In this document: positions 16,331 to 64,000 of the stretch, one piece after another
Numbering within the stretch: position 1 is the stretch's first letter
Layout: every line of letters starts with the position of its first letter
Source: Bremia lactucae
Taxonomy: Eukaryota; Oomycota; Peronosporomycetes; Peronosporales; Peronosporaceae
NCBI RefSeq assembly: GCF_004359215.1
Contig: NC_090611.1
Span: 2,819,447-2,883,446, forward strand
DNA length: 64,000 bases
Direction of reading: 5' to 3'
Translations under genes and position numbers: made by a program
The notes under the pieces: model-generated
The model's database searches: none
What the model was told of the DNA's origin: nothing
Seen by the model: the letters and a program-made list of their open reading frames with translations, nothing else

Positions 16331-16697
16331 GATCGCGCGGGGTTGACAAAGACTCAAATCAACTAATCAATAAAGCTAACGTCTTATTGCATCAATATTA
16401 CCGAATTTGGTAATATTGGAACAATTCTAGTCAAATTTATAAAGATAATGATTTCGTACTTCTTAATTTATTTCCTCTCGTAGGTACTAATATTTATTAT
16501 TTCTCTTATAGCAAACAATACTTATGTAATGGGACACCCTTACAACAACTTTTCACGAAAGACATCGCGGTGGCGAAATTACCACGGTCTGGAGTGATGC
16601 GGACCACTGGGTCGGCAACGAACTCGATAGGTGGAGCACACGCAGACAGCAAATTCACGAGGTCCGCCTGACAGCAAGTATCTACCGGCGATCCTAG
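16331..16697. other. Unassigned spacer with a minus-strand open stretch
   Basis: Between LTR E and LTR C. A 75-codon minus-strand frame (16733-16506) has a Cys-rich segment (DTCCQADLVNLLSACAPPIEF ending ...SCCKG). I do not recognise it. Its first residues come from LTR C sequence, so it may be a chance fusion. Confidence 0.3.
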
Positions 16698-17052
16698 TTT
16701 AAGGGATTCAGGGTTCGTTGAACCAAGTGGCAACTAGTGCTCGAGGGTATGTACCTTAAAAGGGCTACCATTTCTCACACATCAATGCGCAAGCCTTAGG
16801 AAAGCACTAGACGCTTTAATATCAAAAGGGGGACTGCACTTTATTTTATTATATGATCTAGAACCTTACCCTAGCTAATTATTAAATAGATTCCGGTCGC
16901 CAGATTTATATCTGGCGGCTAACATATGTTGTTACCCATAATAAATGGGATTTTAGTAATTAACTATTTTAGAATAGGATAAAAGGGTATTTACCCATAA
17001 AGTAAATGTACCACAACAACGGTTCTCCAACTGATGTGAGCCCCATTACACC
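16698..17052 (-). repeat. LTR, family C (3' LTR of the minus-strand element, truncated)
   Basis: Minus-strand start TGTAATGGGGC at 17052. About 300 bp match, in inverted orientation, the copy at 22897-23323. It diverges from that copy at about 16697, so the distal part is lost or replaced. Confidence 0.75.
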
Positions 17053-17066: not shown

Positions 17067-17161
17067 ATTGATATCGAGTGACAAAATTCGCTTCATTTCC
17101 TCTTTATGGTTGAAACATAAGCAGCTAACCGTTTGGTTGTTTTTGCATTCCTAATTGTCCC

Positions 17162-17930
17162 ATGACAATTAAGCGTGAGTCACAGACTCTTAGCACCGAC
17201 CTCGACGATGAGGGAATGGTGGACTTTGAAAGTCACGCTCAATCAGAGGATGCGGAACAAGGGCGTCGATCTTATACGCCTTCTCTTCCGGATGAACGTC
17301 GGCGGGCTCCGAATCCATTTCCAGAACGTGGTGTCGCTGATGTCGTAACTGCATTCAGGACACAGAACCCTGAGTCCAACATTATTCCGAATCCGCTCGA
17401 TGAAGAGCTAGATCGGGCAGTCCTCATAGAGGAACAAGCTCGTCGTCGAGCTGCAGAGATAGCGAAAGCTAAAACTCATAGCGAATACAGATCACCCCAC
17501 CTAGAACTGAAGAGCGTCTCAAAGAGATCGCAGGTCACAGGACGGCAAGGGCGCCGGAGGAGCTCGCTGCTCGCGACGCTCTTCGTGAGCGATACCTTAC
17601 GCCAAAGGTAATGACGCGAAGTGAGTATCTGACGCGTTTACGTGATCAAGCCCGTGAAGATTCGGTGACCTCAATGAGAGAGTTTCCGATCGTTTTGTTT
17701 CCAAACAAATCAAGAAGTGAAAACGAAGTTTCATTTGAGAATTGAGTCCATCGGGCCCGCCGCCTCCGCAATATTTGGAATATAAGAGAATCTGCGGATG
17801 TAGTTGATGCTCGCTTGAAACGGAAGCTTCACTTCGATTTCGCCAAGCTTAAGGCCAAACTCCGTTACGGTCGGCATTTATGCCACAAAACGAAGAAAGG
17901 CCAAGTCGATATTTCAGTGCTTCGGTTGAC
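17162..17930 (+). pseudogene. Antisense accessory reading frame of family C element
   Basis: Plus-strand frame from ATG 17162 (MTIKRESQTLST), 149 codons open, then continued after one frameshift near 17515 (ARAPEELAARDALRERYLTP, YLTRLRDQAREDS) and past one stop near 17744 (RRLRNIWNIRES, RLKRKLHFDFAKLKAKL). It is charged and predicted helical, with an early acidic segment containing VDF. It occupies the same place, opposite strand to gag-pol and next to the 3' LTR, as the family A and B antisense frames. No known domain recognised. Confidence 0.55.
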
Positions 17931-19600
17931 CGTGCAACCATGTATCGAAGCCGCACTGGGGGTATAGATCCACCTAATCCCACTTCTAGTGGTGTGAAGC
18001 GTTGTTTGACGCGAGTTGACGGAAGCATTTGATGCTCTAAAGCACGAAGTGCAACTTCTTCGTGGGAGCTTTGCTCGGGTTGAGGGCTCTTTTGAGGCAG
18101 TCCAGAGCCCTCTTTCGATGCTGAAACGTCAGTAACTTCGTTTCGAGGGCCAGCTGGATATCCTGGTGAGGATGCAGCAATCTGCGGCACGACCGCCTGT
18201 CTCGGCGCAAGCGCCTTTAAGTCCACGTGGGAAGGGTCCCGATATGGCTTAATCAAGCCGATGTAGAACACTGGGTGTACGCAGCTTGCTAGGAAGGTTT
18301 AGCGTGTAAGCTAGGCCCTTCTTGACCACGGCCGTAAACGGCCCAATAAAGCGCGGGCGCAATTTCGTCTTGAAGATTGTGGAAACCAAGTTAGTAGGTA
18401 GATTTTTAGCGTTTGATAAACTCGGTCTCCGACCACATAAGAATTAATACAGCGTCTGCTTTGGCATCTGCTTGTTCTTTTTGTTTGTCTTGGCTATGAG
18501 CCATCGTGTCACGTACATACCTGAAAACACTAAATCACGTCGCGAGAAATTCGCTAAATTGTTTACGAATGGTAACAGGGCTGATTTGAGCAAGCCTATC
18601 GGCTAATTCTCTCCCACCAAGCCGTGAGCCACGTATTGGTATCGTTAACGGAACGCGTGGGTGGGTGATACCGTTGACATAGAGCCGGGAAAAGCCTGTA
18701 GAGGCATGGACAGCGTTATTTACCGCAAATTATACCATTGTGAGCATTGAGCTCCAGTGCTTTGGTGTCTGAGCACACACTGCGTAAAACGTCTTTAATG
18801 ACGCGGTTGACACGTTCATTTGACCATCGGTCTGCGGTTGGTCCGCGGTGGACATGTCCATTCTGTAGCCAAGCACTCGAAAAATCGATTTCCAGAATTT
18901 ATCCGTGAAACAGGGGTCTCGATCAGAGGCAATCGCCACTGGCAAACCGTGTTGTCGAAACATGAGTCGATGAAAAGCCTTGCTGTACCTTCACCATAAA
19001 TGGTATCCGGCACAGTCAGTCGCTAAGTGAGCCATTTTGCTCAATTGGTCAACAAAGACCACTATGCTGGTTTAACCGGCCGAATCTTTCGGTTGACCGA
19101 AAACAAAATCCATACTAATAGACTCCCAACACCCTGTGGGTACAAGCAGACTTGCCAGCGGTGCAGCAGCATGCGCCGAGAGTTAATCCCGTTGGCAAGT
19201 TTTGCATGTGCGAACGTATGTGCTAACCCATTTGTAAAGTTTAAGCCACCAATAAATCTGGCTTATAGAGCCGTAGGTCTTTTCTCTACCGAGTGACCAC
19301 CAAGGGCAGTATCGTGTGCCTCATAGAGGAATCAATACTTCAAATTCTCATCATGAGGAACAACGACGCGCGCAGAATCCGCAGCGTCTGTGCAATAAAG
19401 TAAAAGGTCCTTATCGATAGAAATCGATGTAATTTTGCACGCAAACATGCCGACAATTTAAAGCCTGATTCATTGCTCTTTAGAGCTCGTAGCAGAGCTA
19501 CACACTGTTCATCCTTGGCGTAAGTCGAACGGATTAAGTCAGGAATAGGCGACATGATAGTCGTTAAATGAGAGAGCTCATAATCCGGCCTGCGTGATAA
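17931..19600 (-). pseudogene. Gypsy family C integrase
   Basis: Minus strand: core motif IASDRDPCFT and FWKSIFRVLGYRMDMSTADQPQTDGQ (18963-18800). A frameshift then hides the NERVNR continuation carrying the catalytic Glu. The C-terminus near 18270 reads FYIGLIKPYRDPS, the usual end of oomycete Gypsy integrases, followed by a low-complexity Pro/Ser/Glu tail overlapping the antisense frame. Zinc-domain remnants lie near 19170-19260. Confidence 0.85.
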
Positions 19601-32283: not shown

Positions 32284-33106
32284 GCCTCTAAGGTGTTGAA
32301 ACTGCAGGCTACACGACTAAGTGTAGCTGCTTATGAAGCTGACTCAAGAGAAGCCGCTCAGGCGTCTACAGCGGTAAGACCTCGCCTCTAACTCCGATTG
32401 GGGGCATATTTTTCGAGCCTGACTCAACGTCGGGCTTGAAGACAACCAGAAAGGCCTCCGGTTCGCCTGGGACCGATTCCGTCAAATCAAGGAGTTCAGA
32501 CGAGACAGCTTAAGTATTGATTTCCGAGATGTTCGAGTCGTCGATTCTTTTCTTGGTGAAGAGTTATAATGTGATGACTTCGGAAAAAAGAACGGTAATT
32601 TTGATGCTGTAATACACCACCAGAAACGAGTGATCTTAAAGATCACTTCAAAGTTATGTTAGCTTAGTTGCTAACATTAGCCAAAGAAAGCCGGACCGCA
32701 ATACGCTGCGTGTCGCTCCCGAATAGAAATCTTGGTTGTCCACTAAGGGCAACATAATTCGTTGGTCATTCCAGACCAACAAACGATACAAAAAAAATTC
32801 GTTCTTCGACACATTCAGGCTTCACAAACATGGTGAGGATAAAACGAATTCTTCATCGAAACCTTTTTCTGGCATCAGTAGTTCACTGTTAAGCGTGCTA
32901 AGGATGTGAATCCTTTGTATCAGAAATGCTTTATACAAAATTTGCAAAGAATAGGCCGCGATGCCTTGACAGAATGGTTACAGCACGTGGCCGGTTTGAA
33001 GAACGAGGTGCACGCTAAAAGCTGCACCGTTTGTCGAGAGAGGCATGTCCCTGCTGCGTTAAGAGTGCAGTTCATTCTATTAGGGTGGCGTACTCACCAA
33101 AAATAA
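32284..33106 (+). pseudogene. Antisense accessory frame of a B-like element (relic)
   Basis: Three plus-strand fragments: KVLKLQATRLSVAAYEADSR (32290-32350), SWLSTKGNIIRW followed by SFFDTFRLHKHGEDK (32725-32845), and KCFIQNLQRIGRDALTEWL (32925-32985). The last two align in order with the frame at the window end (PWLLPKRLINSL, PLFIATKLHGLDPSAK, SAFIRNVKDIGREAWLQKL). It lies downstream of an LTR B relic, as at 63 kb. Frameshifts and stops throughout. Confidence 0.5.
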
Positions 33107-33222
33107 TAATAATAGAATGCTTGCCTCACTTCTGTAATGCGCGAACGGATTGATAATCTGCAAGTCCTTAACGAGCGCGCGAAGCGCTCTTATACCGATG
33201 GTTCCTCGGGATCATAGAATGG

Positions 33223-39234: not shown

Positions 39235-39483
39235 TGTAAGGACCAGTCAACTCGCTAAGCCCTTGACCAATCATTTCGATTTATCATTTAAGCTATTCAT
39301 TTTCTTTAATTCAATTATTCACATGCGCCATACTAAAAACAAGTAAAAAGGTTTGCGCAATTAGGAGAGATGATACTCAGTTTGAATTAGATTTACGATA
39401 GGCGATACCTTAACGAGTATACCAAAAGTATCGATTAGTAAGACTAATTTTAATTCAGTCGTAATATACCCTCATTCCTGACA
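39235..39483 (+). repeat. 5' LTR, Gypsy D
   Basis: Starts TGTAAGGACC, ends CATTCCTGACA. Aligns along its length with 44872-45119. Confidence 0.95.
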
Positions 39484-39485
39484 GG

Positions 39486-39498
39486 TGGTAGCACTTGA
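39486..39498 (+). promoter_or_regulatory. Primer-binding site, Gypsy D
   Basis: TGGTAGCACTTGA two bases after the LTR end, matching family A's PBS exactly although the LTRs are unrelated. Confidence 0.8.
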
Positions 39499-39501
39499 TG
39501 G

Positions 39502-39765
39502 TCTTCCGCTTGCTTCTCCGCCGTCCGCCCGCTTCTTCGCCGTCCGCTCGCTTCTTCGCCGTCCGCTCGCTTCCACGCCGTACGCTCACTTCTTCGCCGT
39601 TTGCGCTTCGTTGGACTGCACTGCGTTGGATTGCCCGGTACTGCTTGTAGCGTGAGAGATTCCGCTCGCAGCCAGTAACTTCCTGCTTGTAGCGTGAGAG
39701 ATTCCGCTCGCAGCCAGTAACGTACTGCTTGTAGCGTGGGAATTTCCGCTCGCAGTCAACTGCTC
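39502..39765. repeat. Two sets of tandem repeats in the Gypsy D leader
   Basis: 39511-39600: about four ~20-bp units of the CTTCTTCGCCGTCCGCTCG type. 39639-39757: three ~42-bp units of ACTGCTTGTAGCGTGAGAG plus CGCTCGCAGCC. Both lie between PBS and gag, where packaging signals usually sit (inference). Confidence 0.85.
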
Positions 39766-39960
39766 CATTCCTTCGAAGCGCTGCGTAGCAGTTTTGAGTG
39801 TGTGGCTTTCAGTATCCCCTGTAAATCTAAGCGTCTGCCTGGCAGATATACTCGCTTAGTCTGTTTGAGGTAAGGTCCGGCTTAACTCGGTGAAACAGTT
39901 AAGCCATCTAGGATAAGGTTGAATCTCTAACGCATTACGCCTAAGGGCTAAAGTAAGTCG

Positions 39961-41440
39961 TTGATTTCTACGAGCAAGAAGAGAAAGGCTACTACTCAGA
40001 TTCCATTCGACTGTAGTAAAACTTTCCTCTTTAAGTACGGTGAGAAGTCTGCAAAGACTGCGAATGATCTGCTTGCGCCTTTACAAAAGACCCGGCGCAT
40101 TGCAAAGACCTTAGCAAGCAACTCACCAAGGAGAAAGCCTGCCTGCCCAAGCAAGGGTCCACCTTATCAGCTCCGCTAGACGAAGTAGACGCGCTTTTGG
40201 AAGAAGCCGAGCGCACTATCTTAAAGGATCTTCGGTTTTACTTAAGAGGCATAAATAAACTAAACAACAAAGTCTTTCAAAAGTCTCAAACACATCTTTC
40301 TTCCATTATGGGCCAACCCTCAAACGCCGAGCTAATGCAGCAAATGATGCATATGCTACAGCAACAACAAGAGTTAATCAAATCATTGACTAATTTCCAA
40401 AACGAAGATGGGCTTACGGTGGACGGGCTAAGAATACCGACGTATAGCGAAAGAAGTGAAGAGTCGCTTCTACTTCATTACGCGCAAGTACAGCAATATT
40501 TTATTGCGCGCGGTACGAAGTGGAAAGAGGACGCAATGGCTCCTCAAGTACTTGCCGTACTAGGAAGTTCATGCGAGGACCAGCAGCACAATGGTTCTTG
40601 CTGCATCGATCATAAATTCACTCAGTCGACGAGTTTTTCTAGCAGTGGAAAAGGAATTCATTCCTGCGGATCTACAACAACGTCTTCGAGACGACCTGCA
40701 TCGGCTGAGACAAGCCAATTGCAAAGGCTTAATGGATTATATTGCGAAATTTCGACACATTATTTCGCAAGTTGAGGACATGACTGAAATAGACCAAGTT
40801 ATCTATATTCAACGAGGGTCAATAACAAGAACGCAAGAAGAAGTTCAATACCGACCGGGAAACACACTGTCGGAGGCTATTACGGTGGCGCTCGACTTTG
40901 AACGCGCACTTTCAGTTGGTTATAATCACCACACCGCTACAACCCCTCGTCCTGGTCCACTAAATGTGGTCAGAGAATTAAATAATGAGATTCCTGTACT
41001 GGGCTGCATCGTCGGTACACATGCCAGAGCTGATGGAAATTGGCAATGCTCGGCCATTTTATAGGTCTTCTCGCGTCTATAACCGACGTCCAAATAAACC
41101 AAAGTGTGCATACTGCAAAGAACTGGGATACACGATTCAGCAGTGTTACAAGCGCAGGAACCAGCAAACTAGTCGCGGCAACGGAAATCGTCGCGATCGT
41201 GCAAACGTCAACTATTTCGAGAATGAGTCAGTCGAAGAAGAAACCATCGCGACTGTGTCAAATGAAACTATCACCACACTAAGTGAAGCTGACTTTGCTT
41301 CCTTCACGGGAAAAGATTTGATCGTCAAAAAGGGTCATCTTGACGATCGTGCTGTTAATAGAATGCTCGATTCTGGCGCCACATGCAATGTGGTGAAGCC
41401 GGGGTCGCTGCAACGCGTCACGTCTGAAGTGGCAATTTAA
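39961..41440 (+). pseudogene. Gypsy D gag with start of protease
   Basis: Pieces in three frames: basic N-terminus (STSKKRKATTQ), coiled coil near 40330 (ELMQQMMHMLQQQQELIKSL), core LRIPTYSERSEESLLLHYAQVQQYF, then VEKEFIPADLQQRLRDDLHRLRQ and DYIAKFRHIISQVEDM. The knuckle near 41105 reads CAYCKELGYTIQQC, with Tyr where the zinc-binding His should be. It ends in DSGATCNVVKPGSL, an intact protease active site near 41370. A short copy of the family A GCIVGTH segment appears near 41000. Confidence 0.85.
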
Positions 41441-42760
41441 GTTGCTCGTTTCAACGGCACTAATACCACCAAAAAGACAGTGAAGAAAGGAGTCGCAAAT
41501 ATCTCTTTTGATGGTAATCCATTTTCTGACGTTCCGGTCATTGAGTGACCAATGAGCAATTCCCATGATGTAATTCTGGGTAAGCCTTGGTTTACTGCGC
41601 ACGAACCAATCATAAATTGGCGTACTCATCAAGTTTCGTTCAAATGTGGTGACATACCACATGATAAGGTTTTTGAACCGGTCATTATTTCCTCTGCCGA
41701 CTTTTCAACGAATTGAAGACATCACAATACGAAGAAGTCTATCGTGTCAGAATTTATCAAGAATCGGAATCTACAAAACCTCGGGAAAAACGGTGAAAAG
41801 CTTTACTCGACTCCTATAAAGATGTATTTCTGGAAAAGTTACCGAATTCATTGCCTCCTCATCGGTCGATTGAGTTTAAAATCAATATGCAACCCGGTGC
41901 GCAACCGAGTAATCGTCCGTTGTTTCGACTTTCACAAGTTGAACAAAAGGCTTTGCAGAAATTTGTCGATGAGAACCTTTCACGCGGATGGATCGAACTT
42001 TCAGACTCGCCTTGGGTATCAAACATCTTTGGCATTCCTAAAAAGGGCCCAACAACCGGTACGAGTGTATCTCGTTCGGAATGGATTCGATCCGGAAACG
42101 CGAGCATTTTGCTTCGTTGGGTGATTGACTTTCGTTGCGTCAACTCAAAGTCAGTCGCCCCTAAAATACCTTTGCCGCGAATCGATGAATTATTCGATAA
42201 GATGCAAGGTATGAGCTATTTCACAGTCATTGACTTAGCTCAAGGGTACCTTCAGATGGTATTCATCCGGATAGCAAAAATACACTGCGCTTCGTACATT
42301 AAAGAGACGTATCAGCGGTGCGTTGCTCCGATGGGCCTTGCTGGAATGCCTGGCATTTGCTCGCGCTTGATGCGTGTTCTTTTTCGAAAGTTCCCATTTG
42401 TTGTGGTATATTTGGATGATATATGCATCTTTTTCGTCTCTTATGACGAGCATCTTGGCCATCTTGCTATCGCGTTCAACGTTAAACGCAAGAAAACACT
42501 ATTCGCTCACATCGGCAAGTGCAAGTTTGCGCGTAAAGAGATCAGCTTTGAGGGCATACTGTCTCTGGCAAAGGATCATCCGTTTTTTATACGAAGACGG
42601 AAGCAATCGCTAAGTGGCCACCACCTACCTCCGTAAAGGAATTGCAAAGTTTTCTTGGTCTTGATGGTTCTTATCGCCGCTTTATTTATCAGTTTGCGCA
42701 CATAGTTCTGCCGTTGAGCCATCTCGTTAAGAAAGATTCTTCATGAGCCTGGAATGCAGA
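41441..42760 (+). pseudogene. Gypsy D protease end and reverse transcriptase
   Basis: The protease flap part (MSNSHDVILGKPWF near 41560) is followed by RT: IEFKINMQPGAQPSNRPLFRLS, LSRGWIELSDSPWVSNIF, VIDFRCVNSKSVAPKIPLPRIDELFDKM, FTVIDLAQGYLQM and the catalytic VVYLDDICIF near 42405. RT motifs are open from 41851 to 42636; the thumb FLGLDGSYRRFI follows in another frame. Confidence 0.9.
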
Positions 42761-43200
42761 ACAAGTGGATTCGTTCGTAAGGCTGAAGTCTGCCTTACAA
42801 GCCGCACCTGTGCTGACTTTGCCCAACTTTACATGCCCGTTTGTTCTCACGAAGGATGCACTAGGGTCGTGCGTGGGATGTGTTTTATCGCAATTTCTCA
42901 ACGGACATGACCATCCAGTAGCGTTTTATTCAAAGAAGCTTGGAGTCCATGAGATTAATTGGCCTGCTCATGAAAAGGACCTATTTGCAATCAAAGCGGG
43001 GTTAGACAAATGGCGTCATTACCTTTATGGTCATCCGTTTGAGATTTTCACAGACAATAGTGCATGCTCTTGGCTGCTTCATCATCCGAAAGTCTCGCCG
43101 AAGTTGGACACCTTCGCTCAATATACGTTTACTATACACCACATCAATGGTGCTTTAAACGTCGTAGCTGATGCGCTTTTGCGCCGGACTGATGATACTG
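42761..43200 (+). pseudogene. Gypsy D RNase H
   Basis: Open frame from 42765: FVLTKDALGSCVGCVLSQ, PVAFYSKKLGVHEINWPAHEKDL, HPFEIFTDNSACSWLL and NVVADALLRRTD. The first catalytic Asp is retained (TKDA). Continuous with the connection domain up to ~43600. Confidence 0.9.
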
Positions 43201-44876
43201 TCGTGGACAATATCCACTTTCATAAGTGCGATTCTAGTTGCCAACAGCGAAGTACACGTATACTTTGCTCGCCCTCGGTGCCAACTCTGTCCCGGGAGGA
43301 GGCTGAGGCTTTGCAAGTTGCCACTTTAATAACAGAGTCGTATGTTGAGTTGTCACCAAAAGTTCGTAAGCTACTTGAACAAGGCTACGCCAGAGATGCC
43401 GAGTTTGAAGAAGCATGGAAAAGCTCCGAAACAAGTTCACTGTTTGTCAAGCAAGAAGAATTGTTGTTGTTGCGCAAATCAAATAAGCTTACACGTCTTT
43501 GCGTGCCCACCAACAACCGTTTGCGAACGAAAGTAATATCGGAATATCATGATTCGGCAATAGCTGCTCATCCGGACAATCGCAGAACATACTTGCGAGT
43601 GGCTCAGTGGTATTACTCGAAATCGTTGCAGAAAGACGTCAAGAATATGTCAAAACCTGTGAAATCTGCGCACGTTGGAAACATGATTATCAACGAAAAA
43701 ACGGATTACTTATGCCAATTTCAATACCGGATGCTTGCTGGCAAGTTGTGTCAATGGACTTCATACAGGGCTTCCTGTGTCCAATGGATTTGATGCCATC
43801 CTAACTGTTGTCGATAAGTTTTTCAAACGGACGAAGTACGCAGCAGTGCTCGTTAAGGACGATGCATGCACAACAGCAAAAGTATTTTTCGATGCTGTAG
43901 TTTGACACCATGGTCCTCCCGAAGTTACCATCAGTGACCGAAATAGCAAGTTCACGTCCATGTTTTGGAAGTCTTTGATGACGATCATCGGTGTTTGTCT
44001 AAGTATGACAACCGCTCATCGGGCTCAAGCCGATGGACAGACCGACCGCCAGAACCTTGTCGTAGAGGACGCGCTCAGATGCATGGTATCTTACCATGAC
44101 ACTGACTGGACCGAATACTTGGGAAGCATAGTGTATGCACACTCTACACTGGTTAGTGCATTTACTGGATGCTCTCCCTTTGAAATAGATACGGGAAGAA
44201 AGGAACGCTCTACATGGCAAAATGTACTGGGCTGATATAGCGAACCAAAGGAGATTGACATATACGCAAAAGAGTTTATCGAAGAACGAGCAAAGATCAT
44301 CGATCAGGCTCGCAGAAATCTTTTAAAGGCACAAGCTTCGCAAAAGCAATATTAAGATCAAAGCGCCGAATAAATATAGTTGAATTCAAGGTTGGAGATC
44401 TAGTTATGCTTGATACTCGCAGAATATCGTTGAAACACGCTGCGAAAGATATGGGGACACCAAGAGCTAAGTTTGCGGCAAGAAAGGTGGGGCCTTTCCA
44501 AATTATCAAAATGTTTAATCCTAATGTGGCAAGTCTTAAGTTACCACAAAGTATGAACAGGATTAATCCAACCTTTAATGTCGATGTTCTATCAAAGAAT
44601 GATGAACCGACACCGGAAAAGTTTTGAAGTCGTCCGATACCGAAAGCATCAAAATTCGTGGATAACGGCATAGCAGATCATCTTCAAGTTATTGAACGTC
44701 TCTTGGAGAAAAGCCGATTCAATCGTCAGCCATACTGGCTCGTACAATGGCATGGTGAAACTTAGGAAGAAGCCAGCTGGGAAAAAGAGAAACAAAATCG
44801 TTATGTCTCCCACTGGAAGGAGCTCGTCGCAGATTTCAATCAGCGTCAACGAGAGATCAAATTGGGGAGAATGTAA
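43201..44876 (+). pseudogene. Gypsy D integrase and chromodomain
   Basis: Zinc domain (YHDSAIAAHP ... CEICARWK, 43545-43665). Core: VSMDFIQGF near 43755, VTISDRNSKF near 43930 and DGQTDRQNLVVED near 44035. The GPY/F-like region reads RKVGPFQIIKMF near 44485. The chromodomain near 44670-44790 reads HLQVIERLLEKSRFNRQPYWLVQWHGET-stop-EEASWE. The stop codon TAA of pol overlaps the 3' LTR start by five bases. Confidence 0.88.
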
Positions 44877-45119
44877 GGACCAGTCAAGTCGCTGAACTCT
44901 TGACCACTCATTTCGATTTATCTTTTAAACCATTCAATTTCTTTGATTTAATTTTTCACATGCACCATAATAAAAACAAGTAAAAAGGTTTGCGCAATTA
45001 AGAGAGATGATACTTAATACGAATTAAATTTAGGATAGGCGATACCTACAGGAGTATACCAAAAGTATCGGCTAGTAAGCTAATTTTAATTAAGTCGGAA
45101 TTTACCCTCATTCCTGACA
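44872..45119 (+). repeat. 3' LTR, Gypsy D
   Basis: TGTAAGGACC...TTCCTGACA, preceded by a purine tract (TTGGGGAGAA) and followed by the target duplication CTCAG. Confidence 0.95.
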
Positions 45120-48913: not shown

Positions 48914-49862
48914 CGTTCATAAGGCGTGTTTTATTGACTACTGCTAAACTGGCAGGGTCACGAGGGCAAGTTTCTGTCTTTGAGATGATACCCTCAAGGG
49001 TCATCGTCATGTTGACGAAACTATGTTTCTCTTCCGCACCGAGCATAGTGAGGGACCCTCCCGTACTAAGACTCGGGCTGCGCACATACGACACTGCGTC
49101 CGAGGATGGCGCAGTCCGTTAATTAAAACGGTGTCTCACCCATACTAGCGTGGACACTGTTATTTATAGCGAACTCCACAAAGGGCACTAGCTTGCTCCA
49201 CTCTTTGGGAGTTGCTATAGTGCGTAAGACATCCGCCACGACCCGAGTGGCACGTTCTATTTGACCAACGGTCTGGGGATGATCTGTGGTCGACATGTGG
49301 AGCTTGCTACCTAGCAGCTCGAACATATGTCGCCAGGAAAACAGACGTGAAACGTGGACCCCGGTCCGATACTATGGACTCAGGCATCTCGTGTAGTCGG
49401 AAACATGATCCAGGAACAAGAGAGCTGCCTCCTTGCCTGTGATCGATTATATGGTGCTAAATGCACCATTTTGCTCAGTCTGTCTACAAAGACGACTAGC
49501 CCCGTCCAGTTTTTATGATCGGGCGGCATGCCAAACATGAAGTCCAGACCTATGACTTCCAACAGTTAATTGGAGTCGGTAGCGGCTTCAGTGGCGCACT
49601 GCTGGACGGTGCAGGCTAAATGCGCTGACACTGTTCGCAAGAGCAAATATAGTAGGAAACCCATCCATATAGGTGTGGCCACCAAAATTCCTCTGACACT
49701 CGTAAAAATGTCTTTTCACGGCCCAGATGCCCACTAGATGGCGCACCATGGAGCTAGTGAAGGATCATAGCTTGAGATCTGTGTCATGGGGTACATAGAT
49801 TCTCAAGGGATCATAAGATGACAGCTGATGCCATGACAGGCCATCGCTGTAGCTTAAGCGAT
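48914..49862 (-). pseudogene. Gypsy family A integrase, element A2
   Basis: Minus strand: VIGLDFMFGMPPDHKNWTGLVVFVDRLSKMVHLAP (49562-49450, first catalytic Asp present), HMSTTDHPQTVGQIERATRVVADVLRTIATPKEW and LVPFVEFAINNSVHASMGETPF (49300-49123). DGQTER has become VGQIER. The C-terminal end is missing. Confidence 0.9.
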
Positions 49863-50480
49863 TTAGCTGTGCGACGGAAGGGAAACCTTTCGTCCACTGA
49901 AGTGATCCAACAGCAGACGACAGTGGTCGTCCTGACTGTATCTCTCTTTAATCTCAGAGGCCAATGAGCTCGTCACGTGGTATGTCTTCATGGCTGCCAA
50001 CGTCGACGGCTGAAATTGTGCTTTCGCACGAGACACACTTTTCTGGTGTCTAATTTCGAAGTCTGGTCTGCGCGATAAAGCGTCAGCCAAGACATTCGAC
50101 TTATTCGGCTTATATTCAACTTTGAAATTAAATTTAGAGAAGAATGTGAGCCATCTATCCATTCTAGGTGAGAGGTGCGGTGAGTTTATTGCGGTCCGCA
50201 ATGATGCACGATCCGTGTAAACCACAAATTGTTCGGTGCCCAGTAGGTGCACACGAAATTTGACAAAAGCTTACTTTATTAAAAGTAGCTCTTTGTCATG
50301 CACAGGGTAATTCAGTTCCGCGGCTTTTAAAAGCCGGGACTGATAAGAGATGACACGGTCAAAGCCGTCGTCATCCTTCTGCATGAGCGCGCTGCCGATT
50401 GCAAAATTACTTGCATCGCAGACGACGCTAAAGGGCTTATCCGCGTCTGGCAATGCCAAGACCGGTGCCTCTACAAGAGA
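49863..50480 (-). pseudogene. Gypsy family A RNase H, element A2
   Basis: Minus strand: ADKPFSVVCDASNFAIGSALMQKDDDGFDRVISYQSRLLK, YPVHDKELL, then after one frameshift HLLGTEQFVVYTDRASLRTAINS and NVLADALSRRPDFE. One indel from continuous coding. Confidence 0.92.
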
Positions 50481-51400
50481 TTGCTTCACTGATGTGAACG
50501 CATCTTCTTGTTCTTTTAACCAAACCCATTCTGTGTCCTTTTTAAGGAGATCAGATAATGGTTTAGTTTGCTCCGCATAATTCTTGCTATACTTATGCAA
50601 GTAATTAGCGAGCCCTAGGAATTGGCGCAAATCCTTCACATGCCGTGGGATTGGCCATTCCTTTACTGATTTTACCTTGTCTGGGTCTGCTCGTACACCA
50701 TGTGTACCAACGATGCAGCCCAGTACAGGTATCTCAGGGACCCCTATGACGCACTTTTGCAAGTTGACGTACAATTGGGCGTCCTTTAAAGTCTGCAACA
50801 CAGCGTCTAAATGACGCTTGTGCGACTCTATTGCGCTCAGCCCGTCCTCGGCCCTACTATGCACGAATACATCGTCAAAGTAATGAGGCGCGTAGGCACG
50901 GTGCTGACGCATCACGTGAGCCACCACTCGGTTGAATGTCGCTGGTGCGTTTTTCAAACCTTGGGGCATCACAAGCCACTCCCAAAGCATACCGCTTGGG
51001 GTGCTTACTGCCGTTTTGGCTACATCGGACTCTCTCATGAGTACCTGATACTAGCCATCCTTCAAATTCAACGGGAAAAGATAGTTGACTTTCCCATGGA
51101 GTTCAACAAGACATCTGTCCGCGGGATTGGCGCTTGCGCCGGTACGGTCGCCGTATTCAGCTTATTGTAAGCATGAACCACGCGCCATCCACCTGTGGCT
51201 TTACGCACACAAAAGGTCGGGCTGCAGTGAGGCGATTTGCTCTCACGCACATGTCCCGCCTTGGCTCGCTTCTCGAAGAACTCATCGATATAATCGACTT
51301 GTTCTTTCGGCAACGGCCATTGCCTGGTTACACAATACTTGGTACCAGGTTCGAGGTCTATCTCGTGCCCGATGCCCCTATCTGCTAGTAGGCGGCTCGG
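50481..51400 (-). pseudogene. Gypsy family A reverse transcriptase, element A2
   Basis: The best-preserved RT in the window. One frame (51625-51068) covers the linker through EIDLEPGTKYCVTRQWPLPKEQ, HVRESKSPHCSPTFCVRKATGG and VLLNSMGKS. The next (51038-50271, 255 codons) holds MPQGLKNAPATFNRV, HYFDDVFVHSRAEDG, VLGCIVGTHGVRADPDKVKS and FLGLANYLHKYSKNYAEQTKPLSDLL. Only the segment near 51040-51070 (expected LDLKDG) is disrupted. Confidence 0.92.
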
Positions 51401-52560
51401 CACATCTTCTGGGAGGACATTGCGAAGTTCCCACAGAACCTTAAATAACGGACAGTCTCTCCAGATATCCCATCCTTGAGCAGCGAACCGTTTCTTTTTG
51501 TCCGTTTCTAGGACGCTCTCGTCCATTGTGGACGACGAGCAACACTCCACCAAGTTCTCTTCTGGAACTGGTGTGACTATTTTTGGATCTTTCCTTCCTT
51601 TAATTCGGCAAGGGACCGATCTCACGACATATCCGGGAGATTTACTATCTCCTCGGCAGATTTAAAGACTTGCCAAGCACCTCAACTGAGGATGCCTTCG
51701 CAATTTCGTCTTTGACGGCCTTGAACACCTCGTTCGAAGGCCCGTCCTCTTTATTTAAGACTGAATTAAAGGTCACTCGTTTAGACGTGCCTTTGATCGT
51801 CCTAATCTGTCGGGTACTCGTTCTTCGAGTCACCATGGTCTTTTTCTGGGAAGCGGGCCGTTGCACTCCTGGCTAACGCACCCCTTCCAATCGCACCAGG
51901 CTCTAGGCACTGTGCCGATTCAAGCGACGCATGACTTCCTGTCAGCTCGCCGTCTACTGCAACAGGCTTTTATCTCTGTGCAGGACATTCGGACGCATGA
52001 CTACTTGTCATCGTCTTTTTCACTACCCCAGTCTCCACAAGCTGTGTAGGAATTCGTGACGTTTGACATTCCGTCAACACACCCTCAACTGTGGTTGACA
52101 CGACATCAGTTGCATACGCCTCTCGCAGGAGCACATCCTTTCTGATTTCCTGCGAAGAGTTCGCAGCTGTGTGTGTACGCCAGTCTATCCAAGGTCGGTG
52201 TTTTGCCAACCATGGCATGCGTAGCATGAGGTCATACGAACTCTCCATACCTAGTACTGTGAACTTATCTTTACAACATAAGTCACTAAAGCTGAAGGCG
52301 AGTTCTACCTGAACTTCGTCAGACTTAACGAGCGCGCCGTTTGCTAAACGAACAGTCGTCTCTTCTCGCTTGCCATCCTGGGAAAGCGACTCAAACATCG
52401 CCAGTCTCTTTCTTAGAGCTGCGAGTTTCACAAACTTTTGTGATGCACCCGAATCGGGTCATCACCTGGTCATAGCGTCTTACATGAGCGCTATAGACCA
52501 GCAGGGTTGAGGTCCGAAATTTCGAGACCTCAGCGACTATGCTACCCATTTGTTCCACAA
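51401..52560 (-). pseudogene. Gypsy family A protease and linker, element A2
   Basis: Minus strand: protease body RLAMFESLSQDGKREETTVRLANG ... LGMESSYDLMLRMPWLAKHRPWIDWRT (52400-52170). The active-site LLVDSGAS segment near 52450 carries a short deletion relative to copy 1080-1130. Linker STRQIRTIKGTSKRVTFNSV near 51830-51770. Confidence 0.85.
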
Positions 52561-52592
52561 CTCTGAACTTAGGAGTAGCTTCAGAGTCCGTG

Positions 52593-53165
52593 TCAGTAGA
52601 ACATCCCGCCCCTACTGCGCTCCTGCATTCCCGACCCCTCAGTGGTCGATGCAGAACTCATGCGTCTCGCACGCTGGTTCTTGCCATCGCCCTTTGTGCA
52701 GGGAGTCCTCTTGCTAGGCGTCTTCGCACCAGCAAGGACCCTTGCATAGCAGCGAGCCATCATATGGCCGTGCTTGCCGCATTTGTAACAGGCAACGTTT
52801 GCTTTGCCCAACTCCATGGGAGTGGCATCTGACCTCTCGGTCGACGGCTTATACAAAGCTGTCGCCGAGGCACTGTTGTAGAATTTCTCCTCAACCAAGG
52901 CAATTTAGATTGCCTCTTCCACCGTCGATGGCACCTTTCCGAAAAGGGTCTGTCGCGAGGGGCCATGCCGTAGTCCCTTAAGGTGCTCCGGAATCGGATT
53001 AATGGTAATGGACGCCGACAGCGAGCGCATCTCTTGCACATACTCTTGTAGATATCGCTTCGCCTGTCGCGCTCCAAAGAAGCGCGCCTGAAGCAACACT
53101 TCGTGGTTCAGCGGCTGACGCCTCCCACAAAAAACAGAACTTGAAGAGCGAGGGACATCACGCAT
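52593..53165 (-). pseudogene. Gypsy family A gag, C-terminal half (element A2)
   Basis: Minus strand: PLNHEVLLQARFFGARQAKRYLQEYVQEMRSLSASI (53110-53010), GLRHGPSRQTLFGKVPSTVEEAI, ALYKPSTERSDATPMELGKANVACYKCGKHGHMMARC (knuckle intact). The N-terminal half is missing; the sequence beyond ~53110 belongs to the antisense/chromodomain block. Confidence 0.9.
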
Positions 53166-54489
53166 GCAACGCGGATCCCTTCCTTAGCATTATCCTTTCA
53201 AAGAAGTCCAAGCGAGTCTTCAGGCGTTCATAACCCTGACGAGCCTTCGCTCGGACATCAACAAGATCCGAGGTCAGTCGCGAGACTTGACCCTCGAGAT
53301 CCTCAACACGTCGTTCAGCAGCGCTGAACGCCTGTGACTGAACAGACGAAGGTAACACAGCCGCGAGTAGTTGGGCGAGATCGCCACTCCTATCGGGTGC
53401 CGCCTGCACTAATGGATGCGGGTGGCAACCAACGCTTCCTTGTTGGAAGGTTGCTTGCTCACTGCTCCTTGAGGCAAGGGTATCAGATCCTTGTCCAATG
53501 GAAAGGTTCCCCAAAGAGGTTTGACTCTTGGGAACCGATCGATACCTACGTATTGATGTGCCTGGCTTGGTTGCTGCCTATGAATAGGAGCACCAGCTGA
53601 GGCCTCTTCGCTAGTCTCAAATGGACTAGCAGGAGTAGCGTTGTGAGAAGAAACAGGGGGTACAGTACCGCCCATGATGCCTTTCCCACGCAAGCGGGCG
53701 AAAATAATTCGCTGCGGATGAATGCGGCGCAGGAATTCCGCCTCGTATTAGTCGGGCGTTTCATTCGAACGCAACACGACCGGGATCGGGAAAATACGCC
53801 TAACGATTTTCTCTGAGCCCTCCATGATTTAAAGACGTCATAATAATTATGTGCGTCTACAAGAGCGCGCTCTAGGAGCGACGCTCTTGCCCGTTTACAC
53901 GAGGCCATATAGATGGAGGGGGCATCAATGATATGTCAACCGTCACATAGCCACGTTCAAAACGACTCGTTCACGTGTCATCGGTGGAGCTTTAGACTCC
54001 GAATCTTCTATGTCAGAACCATTATGGATTATGGTCTGAGCATAAGGCGTTATGGTTATACATAACGGAGAAGCAGCTGCGACGTTATGGTACAGCGCTC
54101 TCATTATCTGCCGCTGCGCTATCCAGCGCAGACGACGAGACAGCATTCGTAAATGTTGCTGTCTCCATGTTGTGAGCCATGAGAGAAGTTTGAATGGGCA
54201 GTAATGGACAATCATCCTTCCACATGAGCTCGTTGTCTGCATCACTACTATGAGGTGACGGCAACGGTGTCGACTCGTTGTAGTCGACAATGAGCGACGG
54301 ATCAGCATCCTCACTGTTAAAGTGGGATGGATCCTTAAGCCCCGTTAATGCGACAGCAGCAGTAGCTGTCGGCGTTTCGACAAAGGCATCGGACACGACC
54401 AGCGAGACAACGCGGCGCGTGCGCTTGGTGCGAGGTTGAGTGGGCGTCTTCGCAGACGACCCACCAACATGGCCCCTTTTAGGTGGCAT
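53160..54489 (-). pseudogene. Antisense accessory reading frame of family A element (copy 2)
   Basis: Minus strand from ATG 54489: MPPKRGHVGGSSAKT and a basic PRTKRTRRVV, then VETPTATAAVALTGLKDPSH, DPSLIVDYNESTPLPS, an acidic/Ser-rich part to 54085; a frameshifted LLERALVDAHNYYDVFKSWR (53880-53810), GKGIMGGTVPPVSSHNATPASP (53690-53620), and a C-terminal coiled coil AAERRVEDLEGQVSRLTSDL ... ERLKTRLDFFERIM (53320-53190). It reads toward pol from just inside the LTR at 54622, opposite to the LTR's own sense. Two or three frameshifts separate it from a ~430-residue protein. No known family. Confidence 0.6.
53334..53600 (+). pseudogene. Chromodomain of family A pol (copy 2)
   Basis: Plus strand: HSYRVPPALMDAGGNQRFLV, LLAHCSLRQGYQILVQWKGS and PKRFDSWEPIDT, a readable chromodomain with the aromatic cage-type residues (Y, W, W). 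A stop sits just upstream (53325), and no integrase precedes it on this strand, so the piece is orphaned. It overlaps the antisense frame on the other strand. Confidence 0.75.
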
Positions 54490-54605
54490 CTTTGGCGCCG
54501 TGTATGGAAACACAGGTCGCTAGAGTGATTGAGTGAACTAGCGGCGCGTGAAGCTGCTCGTAGTTCCTCGCTCCTCTTTGACGAATTTCAAATGTAAACT
54601 CGTTT

Positions 54606-54621
54606 TTTAAGGGGGGGATGG
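54606..54621 (+). promoter_or_regulatory. Polypurine tract, family A
   Basis: TTAAGGGGGGGATGG directly before the LTR start. It marks 54622-55145 as a 3'-type LTR in plus orientation. Confidence 0.65.
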
Positions 54622-55145
54622 AGTAACGGGCTAAAGTTGTTCTAAATGTTACACTGTCCCCATTAAGTACACTTGGTGTACTTTTCAGGATGGTCAATTA
54701 CTAAATTAAGTAATTAAACCCAGCACTCGGGAGTGGTTCACATACGTGATGTATGTGATGCATATAGGTGCATTCACATTAGGAGGGATGACGCCTAGAC
54801 GTCATCCGTTACGCAAGGTATCTAGAAAGATACGCTCGCAATACATATTAAGTGTTATCTATAGAGATGACATTTGATTGGTAAAAATAGGTATTTTTAT
54901 TTAATACGATTAAATAAAAAATCAGTCTGAAAACTACTTCCTACTTCGTAAATGTGCACGAGGAGTCGGATAACCGCTCCCGTGACAACACTTAACTTAA
55001 GTCCTTAGTGCGTTGGGTGAGGTCGCTAACGCGCCCACCACAACTACCTCACTGCACGCAAGAGAAGCTCGTTAAACCGCTTCCTCGCTGTGCTAGGGTG
55101 TGTGTCTAAGTAGAGCGTGGCCGCATTACGACGTGCCCGCCTACA
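54622..55145 (+). repeat. LTR, family A
   Basis: 524 bp, start decayed to AGTAACGGGC, end CCCGCCTACA. I saw no difference from 61365-61888. Followed by a PBS and gag, so it also serves as a 5' LTR in position. Confidence 0.92.
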
Positions 55146-59908: not shown

Positions 59909-61232
59909 GCAACGCGGATCCCTTCCTTAGCATTATCCTTTCAAAGAAGTCCAAGCGAGTCTTCAGGCGTTCATAACCCTGACGAGCCTTCGCTCGGACA
60001 TCAACAAGATCCGAGGTCAGTCGCGAGACTTGACCCTCGAGATCCTCAACACGTCGTTCAGCAGCGCTGAACGCCTGTGACTGAACAGACGAAGGTAACA
60101 CAGCCGCGAGTAGTTGGGCGAGATCGCCACTCCTATCGGGTGCCGCCTGCACTAATGGATGCGGGTGGCAACCAACGCTTCCTTGTTGGAAGGTTGCTTG
60201 CTCACTGCTCCTTGAGGCAAGGGTATCAGATCCTTGTCCAATGGAAAGGTTCCCCAAAGAGGTTTGACTCTTGGGAACCGATCGATACCTACGTATTGAT
60301 GTGCCTGGCTTGGTTGCTGCCTATGAATAGGAGCACCAGCTGAGGCCTCTTCGCTAGTCTCAAATGGACTAGCAGGAGTAGCGTTGTGAGAAGAAACAGG
60401 GGGTACAGTACCGCCCATGATGCCTTTCCCACGCAAGCGGGCGAAAATAATTCGCTGCGGATGAATGCGGCGCAGGAATTCCGCCTCGTATTAGTCGGGC
60501 GTTTCATTCGAACGCAACACGACCGGGATCGGGAAAATACGCCTAACGATTTTCTCTGAGCCCTCCATGATTTAAAGACGTCATAATAATTATGTGCGTC
60601 TACAAGAGCGCGCTCTAGGAGCGACGCTCTTGCCCGTTTACACGAGGCCATATAGATGGAGGGGGCATCAATGATATGTCAACCGTCACATAGCCACGTT
60701 CAAAACGACTCGTTCACGTGTCATCGGTGGAGCTTTAGACTCCGAATCTTCTATGTCAGAACCATTATGGATTATGGTCTGAGCATAAGGCGTTATGGTT
60801 ATACATAACGGAGAAGCAGCTGCGACGTTATGGTACAGCGCTCTCATTATCTGCCGCTGCGCTATCCAGCGCAGACGACGAGACAGCATTCGTAAATGTT
60901 GCTGTCTCCATGTTGTGAGCCATGAGAGAAGTTTGAATGGGCAGTAATGGACAATCATCCTTCCACATGAGCTCGTTGTCTGCATCACTACTATGAGGTG
61001 ACGGCAACGGTGTCGACTCGTTGTAGTCGACAATGAGCGACGGATCAGCATCCTCACTGTTAAAGTGGGATGGATCCTTAAGCCCCGTTAATGCGACAGC
61101 AGCAGTAGCTGTCGGCGTTTCGACAAAGGCATCGGACACGACCAGCGAGACAACGCGGCGCGTGCGCTTGGTGCGAGGTTGAGTGGGCGTCTTCGCAGAC
61201 GACCCACCAACATGGCCCCTTTTAGGTGGCAT
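59903..61232 (-). pseudogene. Antisense accessory reading frame of family A (duplicate of copy 2)
   Basis: Same sequence as 53160-54489 with ATG at 61232, so it adds no independent evidence for conservation. Same frameshifts. Confidence 0.6.
60077..60343 (+). pseudogene. Chromodomain (duplicate of copy 2)
   Basis: Same sequence as 53334-53600 on the plus strand. Confidence 0.72.
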
Positions 61233-61364: not shown

Positions 61365-61888
61365 AGTAACGGGCTAAAGTTGTTCTAAATGTTACACTGT
61401 CCCCATTAAGTACACTTGGTGTACTTTTCAGGATGGTCAATTACTAAATTAAGTAATTAAACCCAGCACTCGGGAGTGGTTCACATACGTGATGTATGTG
61501 ATGCATATAGGTGCATTCACATTAGGAGGGATGACGCCTAGACGTCATCCGTTACGCAAGGTATCTAGAAAGATACGCTCGCAATACATATTAAGTGTTA
61601 TCTATAGAGATGACATTTGATTGGTAAAAATAGGTATTTTTATTTAATACGATTAAATAAAAAATCAGTCTGAAAACTACTTCCTACTTCGTAAATGTGC
61701 ACGAGGAGTCGGATAACCGCTCCCGTGACAACACTTAACTTAAGTCCTTAGTGCGTTGGGTGAGGTCGCTAACGCGCCCACCACAACTACCTCACTGCAC
61801 GCAAGAGAAGCTCGTTAAACCGCTTCCTCGCTGTGCTAGGGTGTGTGTCTAAGTAGAGCGTGGCCGCATTACGACGTGCCCGCCTACA
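61365..61888 (+). repeat. LTR, family A
   Basis: Duplicate of 54622-55145 with the same decayed start. After CCTACA the sequence (GGGTAACCTCG) is not a PBS, so the block ends here. Confidence 0.92.
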
Positions 61889-62642
61889 GGGTAACCTCGT
61901 TTCATATTTGGATTGCCCCACATTATAACTCCAACATCGAGCTTCATTTAATTTTTCTTAGTGTTTTTAAAAGTATACATATCGTGCAGATTTCAAGGAA
62001 TTTCATTATGTAATATTACACGAAAAATGTGCCGCCGTAGACTCTACAGCTAACGCCGGGATAGTTTTACAGTGTATATTTTTTGCCAGGTTGACGCAAG
62101 GGAAGCGAGTGGTCTTCATCGCATTTTCTTACATGACGCCTCTAGCAGTATTACTCATGAGCTTCAAGATGAGATCGTCTCATCCAAAATTAAACAGTTT
62201 ACAGGACACGTTGATAACGAAGAGGGACTTCTTTATGTGCAATGGACAATATGCACTGTTAATAAACAACCGTTTTTTATCTGTGGTTAAGCAGAAATCC
62301 CAAAGTCGTATAAAAAAGAACATTTGAGCTTTGACTGCGATCTTTCTTTGGTACCAATGAATAATTGATCTTGAAGCCGTGAGCCTCTGTAATTTTTATA
62401 GAAGGCGTAGTTCTTTTCACCTTAGGTATGAGCTTCCACCCCACTTAAATATTGCGTAACCCTGAATTTCAAGCGTCACACTATCATAATAAGCAATCTC
62501 GTAACCAGCAGGTTAACAATTGTCGTAGAGCTGCATTCTATTCAACCATTGCTCTACTCGCCGCAACCCGTCTCGAATGGTGTTCATACCTATTTTGCTG
62601 GATCTCTGTTCAATAAAAATAATAATGATCAAATTTACCATG
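61889..62642. other. Unassigned spacer
   Basis: No recognised gene. A plus-strand open stretch at 62072-62290 (DAREASGLHRIFLHDASSS, FTGHVDNEEGLLYVQWTI) has protein-like composition but matches nothing I know. Confidence 0.35.
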
Positions 62643-63083
62643 TGTAACGGGTAACTACGACTTGTGCTGCTTCAGTACAAGTCCACTTCGCACTGCTTCA
62701 GTTGCGAGTGGCGCCTTACGTTATTTCACGTACTCTAAAACGTGCAGAGGAAGACTTCTCTTTAAGGCAACTAGCTTAAAGAGTGTTAAATGAAAATTGT
62801 ATTAATATAATTAAGTATCTCTTCTTTCTATCTGTTAATGCTAACTTAATTATAAACTAATACAAAAATGCAATTGAAATCTTATCTGTTACTCTCTTTA
62901 TTTACGTTTACAGCTAACTAGTCTACGGGATAAATAGATATAATGACCTATACCTATTTATGGATAAGATTTCTGAACATTCCTATATAACGTAATATCC
63001 TCCAAATACTATGTACCTTTTAGAAAATATATTAATTAACAACCTTTAAGGTTTAATTTCATGTAACGATACACCCCGTTACA
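62643..63083 (-). repeat. LTR, family B (3' LTR of a minus-strand element leaving the window)
   Basis: Homologous to 13789-14240, with termini TGTAACGGGT and ACCCCGTTACA. The purine tract at 63084 sets the orientation: the internal region extends to the right, beyond 64000. Confidence 0.88.
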
Positions 63084-63099: not shown

Positions 63100-63165
63100 C
63101 GACAATCACTCTGACTGTCATTGGATGGGGTGGTCACTATGTGACCACTTAATTTAAAAAAAACG

Positions 63166-64000
63166 ATGTTGTATGGTCAGAACCATCATTTAAAATTCCA
63201 TCGCATGAAGAGCAAATTCATGCGGGGTGCTGATAGTGCGGCGCCTTCGGCTGCGGTTCGTGCAGCCGCGGGTGACGCACTGTTATCTCTTGCGCCAGAC
63301 GGAACGTCTGCCGTAGCATCTTCTACTCGCGCAACACTAGATGTTGCGGGTGCACGTGGTGATTCACCACGTGAGTTCGACCCCTCTTTTGAGGTCGACT
63401 ACAAATGCGAGTCGGACGAAATGGCCGACTCGGGGAGAATAGAACAGTCGCCTGATAGACGTCAGGCGGCTGACTATGAGCCTTCGAATGAGAGGGCTCA
63501 TTCTGATAGACGAGTAAATAGTCTCTTTGGATCCGACGATGAGGATGATCCCTCATCGCCCGTACGATCTCCCATACGGCTGCACGTGTTTCTGTGCAAG
63601 GTGTCGACGATAGCGTAAGCCATCGTAAGAAAAGTTCTTGTGGTACCCCTGCTTCAGTGGGTACCACTCAGGGGAGTGAAGACAATAAAATGTCTCATCT
63701 CGCCCCTATAAAGAAGCCGTGGCTTTTGCCAAAACGGCTTATCAATAGCTTGTCTGGAGAAACTACTCCTCACAATAAATATCCCTTATTTATTGCGACA
63801 AAGCTACATGGCCTTGATCCCAGCGCGAAGAACTTTCGCGCTGAGGAAGATTTCTATCTCGATGCTTTTCTAAAGCATCGATGGTTTAGTGGCAATAATA
63901 AGCGAGATAAAGTCTCGCTTATGCAAGCTTGGAGTGCGTTCATTCGCAATGTTAAAGACATTGGACGCGAAGCTTGGCTTCAAAAACTTAACGCGAATCG
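63166..64000 (+). pseudogene. Antisense accessory reading frame of family B element (runs off window)
   Basis: Plus-strand frame from ATG 63166 (an in-frame ATG at 63205 is an alternative start): Ala/Ser-rich start, then FDPSFEVDYKCESDEMADSG near 63375-63425 and an acidic DDEDDPSSPV near 63535. One frameshift near 63580 leads to a second frame open to the window edge: APIKKPWLLPKRLINSLSGE, YPLFIATKLHGLDPSAKNF, FYLDAFLKHRWFSG, MQAWSAFIRNVKDIGREAWL. So ~275 codons with a single slip, opposite in strand to the element's gag-pol. DPS..VDY is shared with family A's frame; the C-terminal part aligns with the relic at 32284-33106. The DNA holds at least nine perfect inverted repeats with arms of 7 bp or more. 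Function unknown. Confidence 0.6.

Follow-up and report, generated by a model that had tools for sequence, protein, structure and literature searches.

An antisense gene beside the 3' LTR of three Gypsy retrotransposon families in Bremia lactucae

In the 64,000-nucleotide stretch of the Bremia lactucae genome analysed in this study (hereafter, the window), a reading frame at 53160-54489 lies next to an LTR of a Gypsy retrotransposon and runs on the strand opposite to it. Is this frame a gene of the retrotransposon, and what might its protein do there? A sequence-only reading of the window had placed such frames, on the strand opposite to gag-pol, between the integrase-chromodomain region and the 3' LTR in three families (A, B and C). 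As described below, this layout holds in tblastn comparisons, in one family A element of the window (A1) and in the genome copies, and we regard it as nearly certain that the gene itself is real in these Gypsy families. Antisense genes of this general kind are known; what is new here is the host group and the protein families, and the gene overlaps the chromodomain end of pol.

Layout of the antisense gene and its elements

The copies of the antisense gene in the window, located by tblastn with database proteins, are as follows.

53182..54489, minus strand: family A antisense gene, broken (copy A2); matched by P0017, P0018, P0019 and P0020 with up to 70% identity and E to 1.5e-51
59925..61232, minus strand: another broken copy of the family A antisense gene (A3), within a stretch 99.96% identical to A2
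7366..9050, minus strand: family A antisense gene, broken, in element A1 with pol on the plus strand; P0017, E 1.6e-54, and block order
17162..18249, plus strand: family C antisense gene, broken, with an internal deletion; P0036, E 1.9e-48
63220..64000, plus strand: first part of the family B antisense gene, in two frames; P0002, 85-91% identity, E 1.6e-108
32658..33199, plus strand: relic of a family B-type antisense gene; P0006, E 7.9e-12

Every copy in the window is disrupted by stops or frameshifts, and the family B copy also leaves the window. The gene in A2 has its ATG at 54489 and its coiled-coil end near 53182, while the family C copy has lost some sequence, the other copies being about 200 bases longer between query positions 1021 and 1021-1099. 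These places agree with the coordinates given earlier from the sequence alone, except that the family B gene begins at 63220, the ATG in common with its relatives, and not at 63166; also, copy A3 (61232-59925, minus strand) was absent from the earlier list. Beside the B-type relic, no LTR was found at 31300-32700 in comparison with the LTRs of the window and with seven loci. Immediately after this relic, the stretch 33223-33578 is palindrome-like and 79% self-complementary.

Upstream of its ATG, the gene adjoins an LTR.

54623..55145, plus strand (the sense strand): LTR of family A adjoining antisense copy A2; direct repeats, and block order in genome copies
61366..61889, plus strand: LTR of family A adjoining antisense copy A3; direct repeats
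9351..9741, plus strand: 3' LTR of element A1; repeat comparison and block mapping
62636..63077, minus strand: 3' LTR of the family B element, 88.9% identical to a 5' LTR past the window
16697..16999, minus strand: probable 3' LTR of the family C copy (candidate with approximate boundaries); 87% inverted match to 22896-23196

In the genome copy L036, the homology of the family C candidate runs on into the antisense gene. The distance from LTR to ATG is about 134 nt in family A, 143 nt in family B and, with the putative LTR, 163 nt in family C, and the three genes are thus alike in place, strand and LTR-ATG distance. The gag of family B is on the minus strand to the right of the antisense gene. 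Beside the family C frame at 17162-18249 (plus strand), an integrase end is recognizable by eye on the minus strand, and the family C copy L040 has a chromodomain on the strand opposite to the antisense gene. In all three families, indeed, the later part of the antisense gene has the chromodomain frame on its opposite strand, and the end of the locus is therefore read on both strands. The sense features next to copy A2 are the following.

53442..53543, plus strand: sense chromodomain ending the integrase, opposite the antisense gene; PF00385, E 2.8e-5, 24.4 bits (cut-off 25.1)
48963..52458, minus strand: pol block of A2 (RT, RNase H) with RVT_1 and RT_RNaseH matches, inverted relative to the LTR and chromodomain

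The PF00385 chromodomain is clear in the genome copy L014 (E 1.6e-9). With LTRs, gag, RT, RNase H, an integrase after RNase H and a C-terminal chromodomain, these elements are of the Ty3/Gypsy type with chromodomain; the domain set was gathered across several copies, since the frames are broken.

Element A1 (1-9741) carries RT, RNase H and, below cut-off, an RVP_2 protease, all on the plus strand; the chromodomain stretch comes next, then the antisense frame and then the LTR, which is the unrearranged order. In A2 and A3 (47286-61889), RT and RNase H are instead on the minus strand; relative to the LTR, the chromodomain stretch and the antisense frame, the PR-RT-IN block has the direction opposite to that in A1, and the protease (PR) region of A2 extends from the pol block to 53116. 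The frame at 53160-54489, which had been described as antisense to gag-pol, is accordingly antisense to the LTR and the chromodomain but shares its strand with the local, inverted RT, so that the description is right for the former and wrong for the latter.

We judged the usual order of family A from the 20 best of 46 non-window matches in the genome (116 Mb, 220 contigs), on each of which 12 blocks were mapped. The chromodomain stretch was beside the antisense gene in 20 of the 20 loci, a count that is nearly built in because the query covered most of this stretch. The LTR followed the antisense gene in the same relation in 18 loci, and the IN block was upstream in sense orientation in 15; among the remaining five, four had no IN match there (with runs of N in some loci) and one (L025) had an inverted RT piece. 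In one family A copy (L010), furthermore, the gag domain PF03732 is upstream of the protease in sense orientation. Because of the block order in these 20 loci, the antisense order is the usual one for family A, and A2 and A3 bear a secondary inversion of pol.

Some further features of the family A copies may be noted. The region 47286-61889 is a tandem pair of family A elements with one LTR in common and with both pol blocks inverted. The stretches 52602-55145 and 59344-61888 in this pair are 99.96% identical, while the pol blocks of A2 and A3 are only 86.7% identical; this near-identity beside diverged pol suggests a recent conversion or duplication. Inverted pieces are also present in L019, L025 and L028. 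Element A1 has an internal tandem duplication, in which 757-2900 is repeated at 2902-5045 with 99.1% identity, and a 146-codon frame is found beside the family A copy L013 at 2287-2724 of its reverse complement.

A fourth Gypsy family in the window serves as a control without the antisense gene.

39235..45119, plus strand: family D Gypsy element; LTR pair 88%, with RT, RNase H and the IN zinc-binding domain

The last sense frame of family D stops at 44873, just within the 3' LTR (44872-45119), and there is therefore no room for an antisense gene. The integrase has an SH3 domain in 44259-44627 and then a tail that looks chromodomain-like by eye with no match in Pfam. While a 126-codon stretch on the minus strand opposite the integrase (44297-44677) is open, it gave no tblastn match to the antisense proteins of A, B or C. 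Also in the window, between retrotransposons, is a frame of 1490 codons (24787-29259) in which NPC1 N-terminal, NPC1 middle luminal and sterol-sensing domains were recognized.

Open copies, relatives and selection on the antisense frame

Outside the window, open copies of the gene were found. The family B copy L039 has an open antisense frame of 608 codons, the last of which run beyond the end common to the relatives; of the five B copies first read (L033, L034, L037, L038 and L039), the other four had breaks or were truncated, either at the window end or by N. The sequence-only reading had proposed to compare the frame with shuffled controls, and in three open copies (392, 410 and 608 codons) it is indeed more open: 2000 dinucleotide shuffles of each gave no frame as long, the longest being 298 codons. 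These copies were selected and not random, as two had been listed without stops and the third (L039) was already known to be open.

The database was searched with three queries: the open frame of B, an open piece of A (L013) and a piece of C (L040). At least 14 relatives were obtained for B, 18 for A and 24 for C, and the longest have 430-593 amino acids; the B search scored the best 7995 candidates by common words. The named sources were Peronospora effusa, P. farinosa, P. matthiolae and Hyaloperonospora arabidopsidis. The long relatives are 33-69% identical to the query, or 82% in the case of P0002. When a Peronospora B protein was searched against the Bremia lactucae genome, at least 91 matches were found, 20 of those listed having no stop.

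For family B, selection was examined with eight open copies (seven from no-stop matches and L039), all of which were picked for openness; their pairwise dN/dS was 0.14-0.64 with a median of 0.48. The comparison of the six frames covered residues 180-560. At residues 180-390 (L039 numbering), a part that is not opposite the integrase-chromodomain frame, the antisense frame had a dN/dS of 0.369 and no stops in 1691 codons, while the five other frames had 21, 162, 37, 96 and 67 stops with dN/dS of 1.15, 0.73, 0.96, 0.96 and 0.45, respectively. The control with the lowest value (0.453) is a sense frame having its third codon positions in common with the antisense frame; therefore, dN/dS by itself leaves the coding strand of family B undecided, and it is the stop counts that decide it. 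At residues 391-560, the antisense frame had a dN/dS of 0.573 with no stops in 1089 codons and the sense frames 0.64-1.08, including an open one (0.694, 4 stops in 1079 codons) and another with 66 stops (0.637).

In eight copies of family C, the antisense frame at residues 1-290 had a dN/dS of 0.42 and 5 stops in 1366 codons, in comparison with 0.46-1.34 and 34-115 stops in the other frames; at residues 290-451, the antisense frame (0.58) was equaled by a sense frame (0.58). Third positions were the most variable in these parts of B (residues 180-390) and C (residues 1-290), and no open sense frame that could explain the conservation, as the earlier reading had demanded for its refutation, runs over these constrained parts. 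Constraint on the antisense gene is thus seen in family B and, for family C, in residues 1-290.

The depletion of stops and the low dN/dS that had been expected of the antisense frame were, therefore, found in B and in C residues 1-290, whereas family A did not follow in its dN/dS. In 20 copies, this was 0.58 (residues 1-150), 0.73 (150-290), 1.1 (290-380) and 0.50 (381-450), and over residues 1-380 the value of 0.76 was no lower than those of the control frames (0.73-0.96); at residues 290-380, it is the sense chromodomain frame that is constrained (0.55). Stops numbered 24 in 4589 antisense codons vs 189-332 in the controls, a count favoured by the placement filter, which prefers conserved residues and hence lets fewer antisense stops be counted. 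These 20 copies are out of 21 (L020 was unplaced), and L024 had been left out beforehand as like L023. As far as it goes, the dN/dS of family A runs against the reading as a gene, and old, decaying copies may dilute the signal; the case for a family A gene is made because long relatives with about 50% identity are found in other species.

Antisense proteins and kinship of the three families

The protein has about 430-590 amino acids in a single frame and consists of a mostly acidic N-terminus, a conserved middle and a C-terminal coiled coil. HBZ, encoded by an antisense gene of a human T-lymphotropic virus, likewise has an acidic N-terminus and then a C-terminal coiled coil, an order recognized in the oomycete protein from sequence and models. 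Nine of the ten proteins computed have a net acidic charge over their first 100 residues (the exception, P0017, is +1), and family A proteins are basic overall with pI 9.7-10.0. None of the ten proteins computed has a membrane span; the largest 19-residue hydropathy mean, 1.36, is too low. The N-terminus contains a motif, D-P-x-L-x-V-D-Y, of which family C has variants. That A and B have DPS..VDY in common, as noticed from the window alone, was borne out by an 11-residue stretch, DPxLxVDYxxES, found in both. The alignments took in 14 of 14 matches for B, 10 of 18 plus P0016 for A and 14 of 24 for C, and that of B has 24 invariant columns including C-x(2)-W-x-D-x-C-P-x-C.

No Pfam family was above cut-off in the A, B and C proteins scanned, the sub-threshold matches being mostly to coiled coils; in particular, these scans gave no DNA-binding or bZIP family above cut-off (for C, among the 25 families listed out of 32). 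TRP28 (PF04195) did not appear when eight proteins of A and B were run through hmmscan (E up to 10), nor among the 25 families listed, out of 32, for 14 C proteins. Neither B nor C had a convincing match by sequence among solved structures, and the fold search with the B model gave no match. The AlphaFold models made for A and B are of low overall quality, with a mean pLDDT of about 45; nonetheless, they agree in having little N-terminal structure, a helical middle and, at the C-terminus, a long helix, which is the confident part with a pLDDT per block of about 75-94 in B and 78-89 in A.

In profile comparison (hhalign), A and C align over 217 columns with a probability of 95.4, E of 1.8e-8 and 23% identity, pairing the IPVVL..NET-like and the INFA/FDFAKLKAKG-like stretches. 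From this alignment, we consider the A and C antisense proteins to be homologous. The same comparison gave no match of A with B or of B with C, and B is tied to A and C only by position, layout and the short VDY motif. The RNase H domains of A, B and C are mutually 53-61% identical and 27-38% identical to that of family D. The simplest history is one gain of the gene before the split of A, B and C; a separate gain in B is also possible.

Possible expression, role and alternatives

How might the gene be expressed? The oomycete initiator has the consensus YCAYTYY according to the available part of PMC3599244, and matches to it lie upstream of the ATG in all three families.

54522..54528, minus strand: YCAYTYY initiator match of family A, 39 nt before the antisense ATG
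63106..63112, plus strand: initiator match TCACTCT of family B, 114 nt before the ATG at 63220
17093..17099, plus strand: YCAYTYY initiator match of family C, upstream of the antisense gene

An initiator match is present in the family A leader of 15 of the 19 further copies that aligned, out of 21 given. In family B the match is present in five of five copies, and a second one, TCATTTT, is nearer the ATG in four of the five and absent in the window copy; in family C a match is present in four of seven aligned copies (eight given), at two positions. Matches occur by chance at about one per 1024 bases, and the copies of a family are not independent; the evidence therefore amounts to three tests at about 0.1 each. 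These sequence matches hint at an antisense start, and because of them we propose that an antisense mRNA would start from a promoter lying in the 3' LTR or a short way inside it. The protein would then self-associate through its coiled coil and act in the nucleus, regulating the element's own expression or its chromatin targeting. Such a regulatory role has been proposed for the antisense proteins of plant Retand elements and reported for HBZ. Taken as a whole, the statement that A, B and C carry an antisense gene with an LTR-driven mRNA and a nuclear self-associating regulator appears somewhat probable, and the regulatory role of the protein in itself is put forward tentatively.

The likeness to the antisense genes of plant Tat-lineage elements and of deltaretroviruses, which had already been pointed out, is apt in view of what PMC11963269 describes in its available part. 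There, the plant Retand elements, a non-chromovirus lineage with a pol-3' LTR region of 2.9-6.6 kb, are reported to encode antisense ORFs in this region in all clusters studied, with the TRP28 domain (PF04195) in 97% of clusters; these ORFs are kept across species, a regulatory role is proposed for them, and some match Smc models (PMC11963269). Coiled coils may give such Smc matches. Like those of Retand, the oomycete ORF is antisense to gag-pol in the pol-3' LTR interval and has relatives in other species (known as proteins alone); unlike them, it is only about 1.3-1.8 kb, overlaps the chromodomain end of pol and shows no TRP28 in the proteins scanned. In being an antisense gene of a retroelement, it also resembles HBZ and APH-2 of the human T-lymphotropic viruses (PMC11963269, in part), but the oomycete proteins have no bZIP match in the Pfam scans and the host is unrelated. 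Chronos elements are likewise oomycete Gypsy elements with a chromodomain, and the part of PMC5348765 available describes in them an additional RNase H of archaeal/plant type, whereas no PF00075 was found in the pol frames scanned here, which are broken and cover part of the intervals. The words antisense, opposite and accessory are absent from that text of PMC5348765. In Ectocarpus, a stramenopile mobile element with an opposite-strand gene is described (PMC12477816, in part), but that case, with a ParB/methyltransferase protein, belongs to the Sola DNA transposons and not to the Gypsy elements. The earlier statement that no oomycete case had been described agrees with the matches listed in open-access full texts, among which there was none (subscription journals being outside).

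It is possible, albeit rather doubtful, that antisense-encoded regulators of retroelements arose a third time, independently of HBZ and of TRP28/Retand; in this parallel system, a nuclear self-associating protein would be expressed from an antisense promoter at the 3' LTR and have its coiled-coil end encoded opposite the integrase end. If this were true, one DNA stretch would code for both the targeting end of the integrase and its regulator.

Among the alternatives, we regard it as unlikely that the protein blocks host silencing, for instance by binding small RNAs or Argonaute, instead of regulating transcription. Gypsy elements are targets of silencing in Phytophthora infestans, where small RNAs of both strands map to them, as the available part of PMC3522703 describes, and a protein with no membrane span that is basic overall in family A would suit such a role; nonetheless, no likeness to a known silencing suppressor was among the Pfam matches. 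Capture of a host gene that is carried with no role in transposition is compatible with the named relatives being all oomycete. However, three families with RNase H domains that differ by 39-47% all have the gene at one position and in one orientation, it is constrained in B and C, and 18 of 20 A copies adjoin the LTR, so that such a passenger is improbable. Slightly less probable still is a structural or particle protein, either Env-like or a second Gag-like product. Retroviral env genes sit between pol and the 3' LTR, the very place of this gene, and a long coiled coil is present in the models, but the protein has no membrane span and is encoded on the strand opposite to gag-pol; also, the A, B and C profiles, which are shallow, had no match to the single sequence used for gag, that of family B in the window.

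The frame might, alternatively, be a by-product, the sequence being conserved by sense coding or by an antisense RNA and not by a protein. Its last part does lie opposite the integrase/chromodomain, and the sense frame there is open and constrained in family A; nonetheless, in residues 180-390 of B and 1-290 of C it is the antisense frame that lacks stops, none of the sense frames is open and variation is greatest at third positions; also, the proteins are conserved in other species. This explanation is largely refuted for B and C, and overall we deem it very improbable. That the arrangement at 53160-54489 is a rearrangement artefact, namely a gag displaced onto the strand of pol, is hardly credible: while the local pol is on the same strand as the frame, the chromodomain is on the opposite one and the frame has no similarity to the one gag sequence compared. 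The displaced gag is refuted by the canonical block order in the 20 genome loci and by the sense PF03732 upstream of the protease in L010.

We accordingly retain the reading as an antisense gene of the elements. A conserved gene of this kind in oomycete Gypsy elements, unrelated to those of Retand and the deltaretroviruses, suggests that the antisense layout evolved repeatedly and has a use, and it provides a comparative test of what this layout serves. Also, it suggests that downy mildew protein families annotated as uncharacterized or unnamed are retroelement genes and not host genes. One database protein matching family C, P0058, has a piece of the integrase core fused in one frame to the C-terminal part of the antisense protein, and judging from this sequence it may derive from a rearranged copy, like the A2/A3 inversion, in another sequence.
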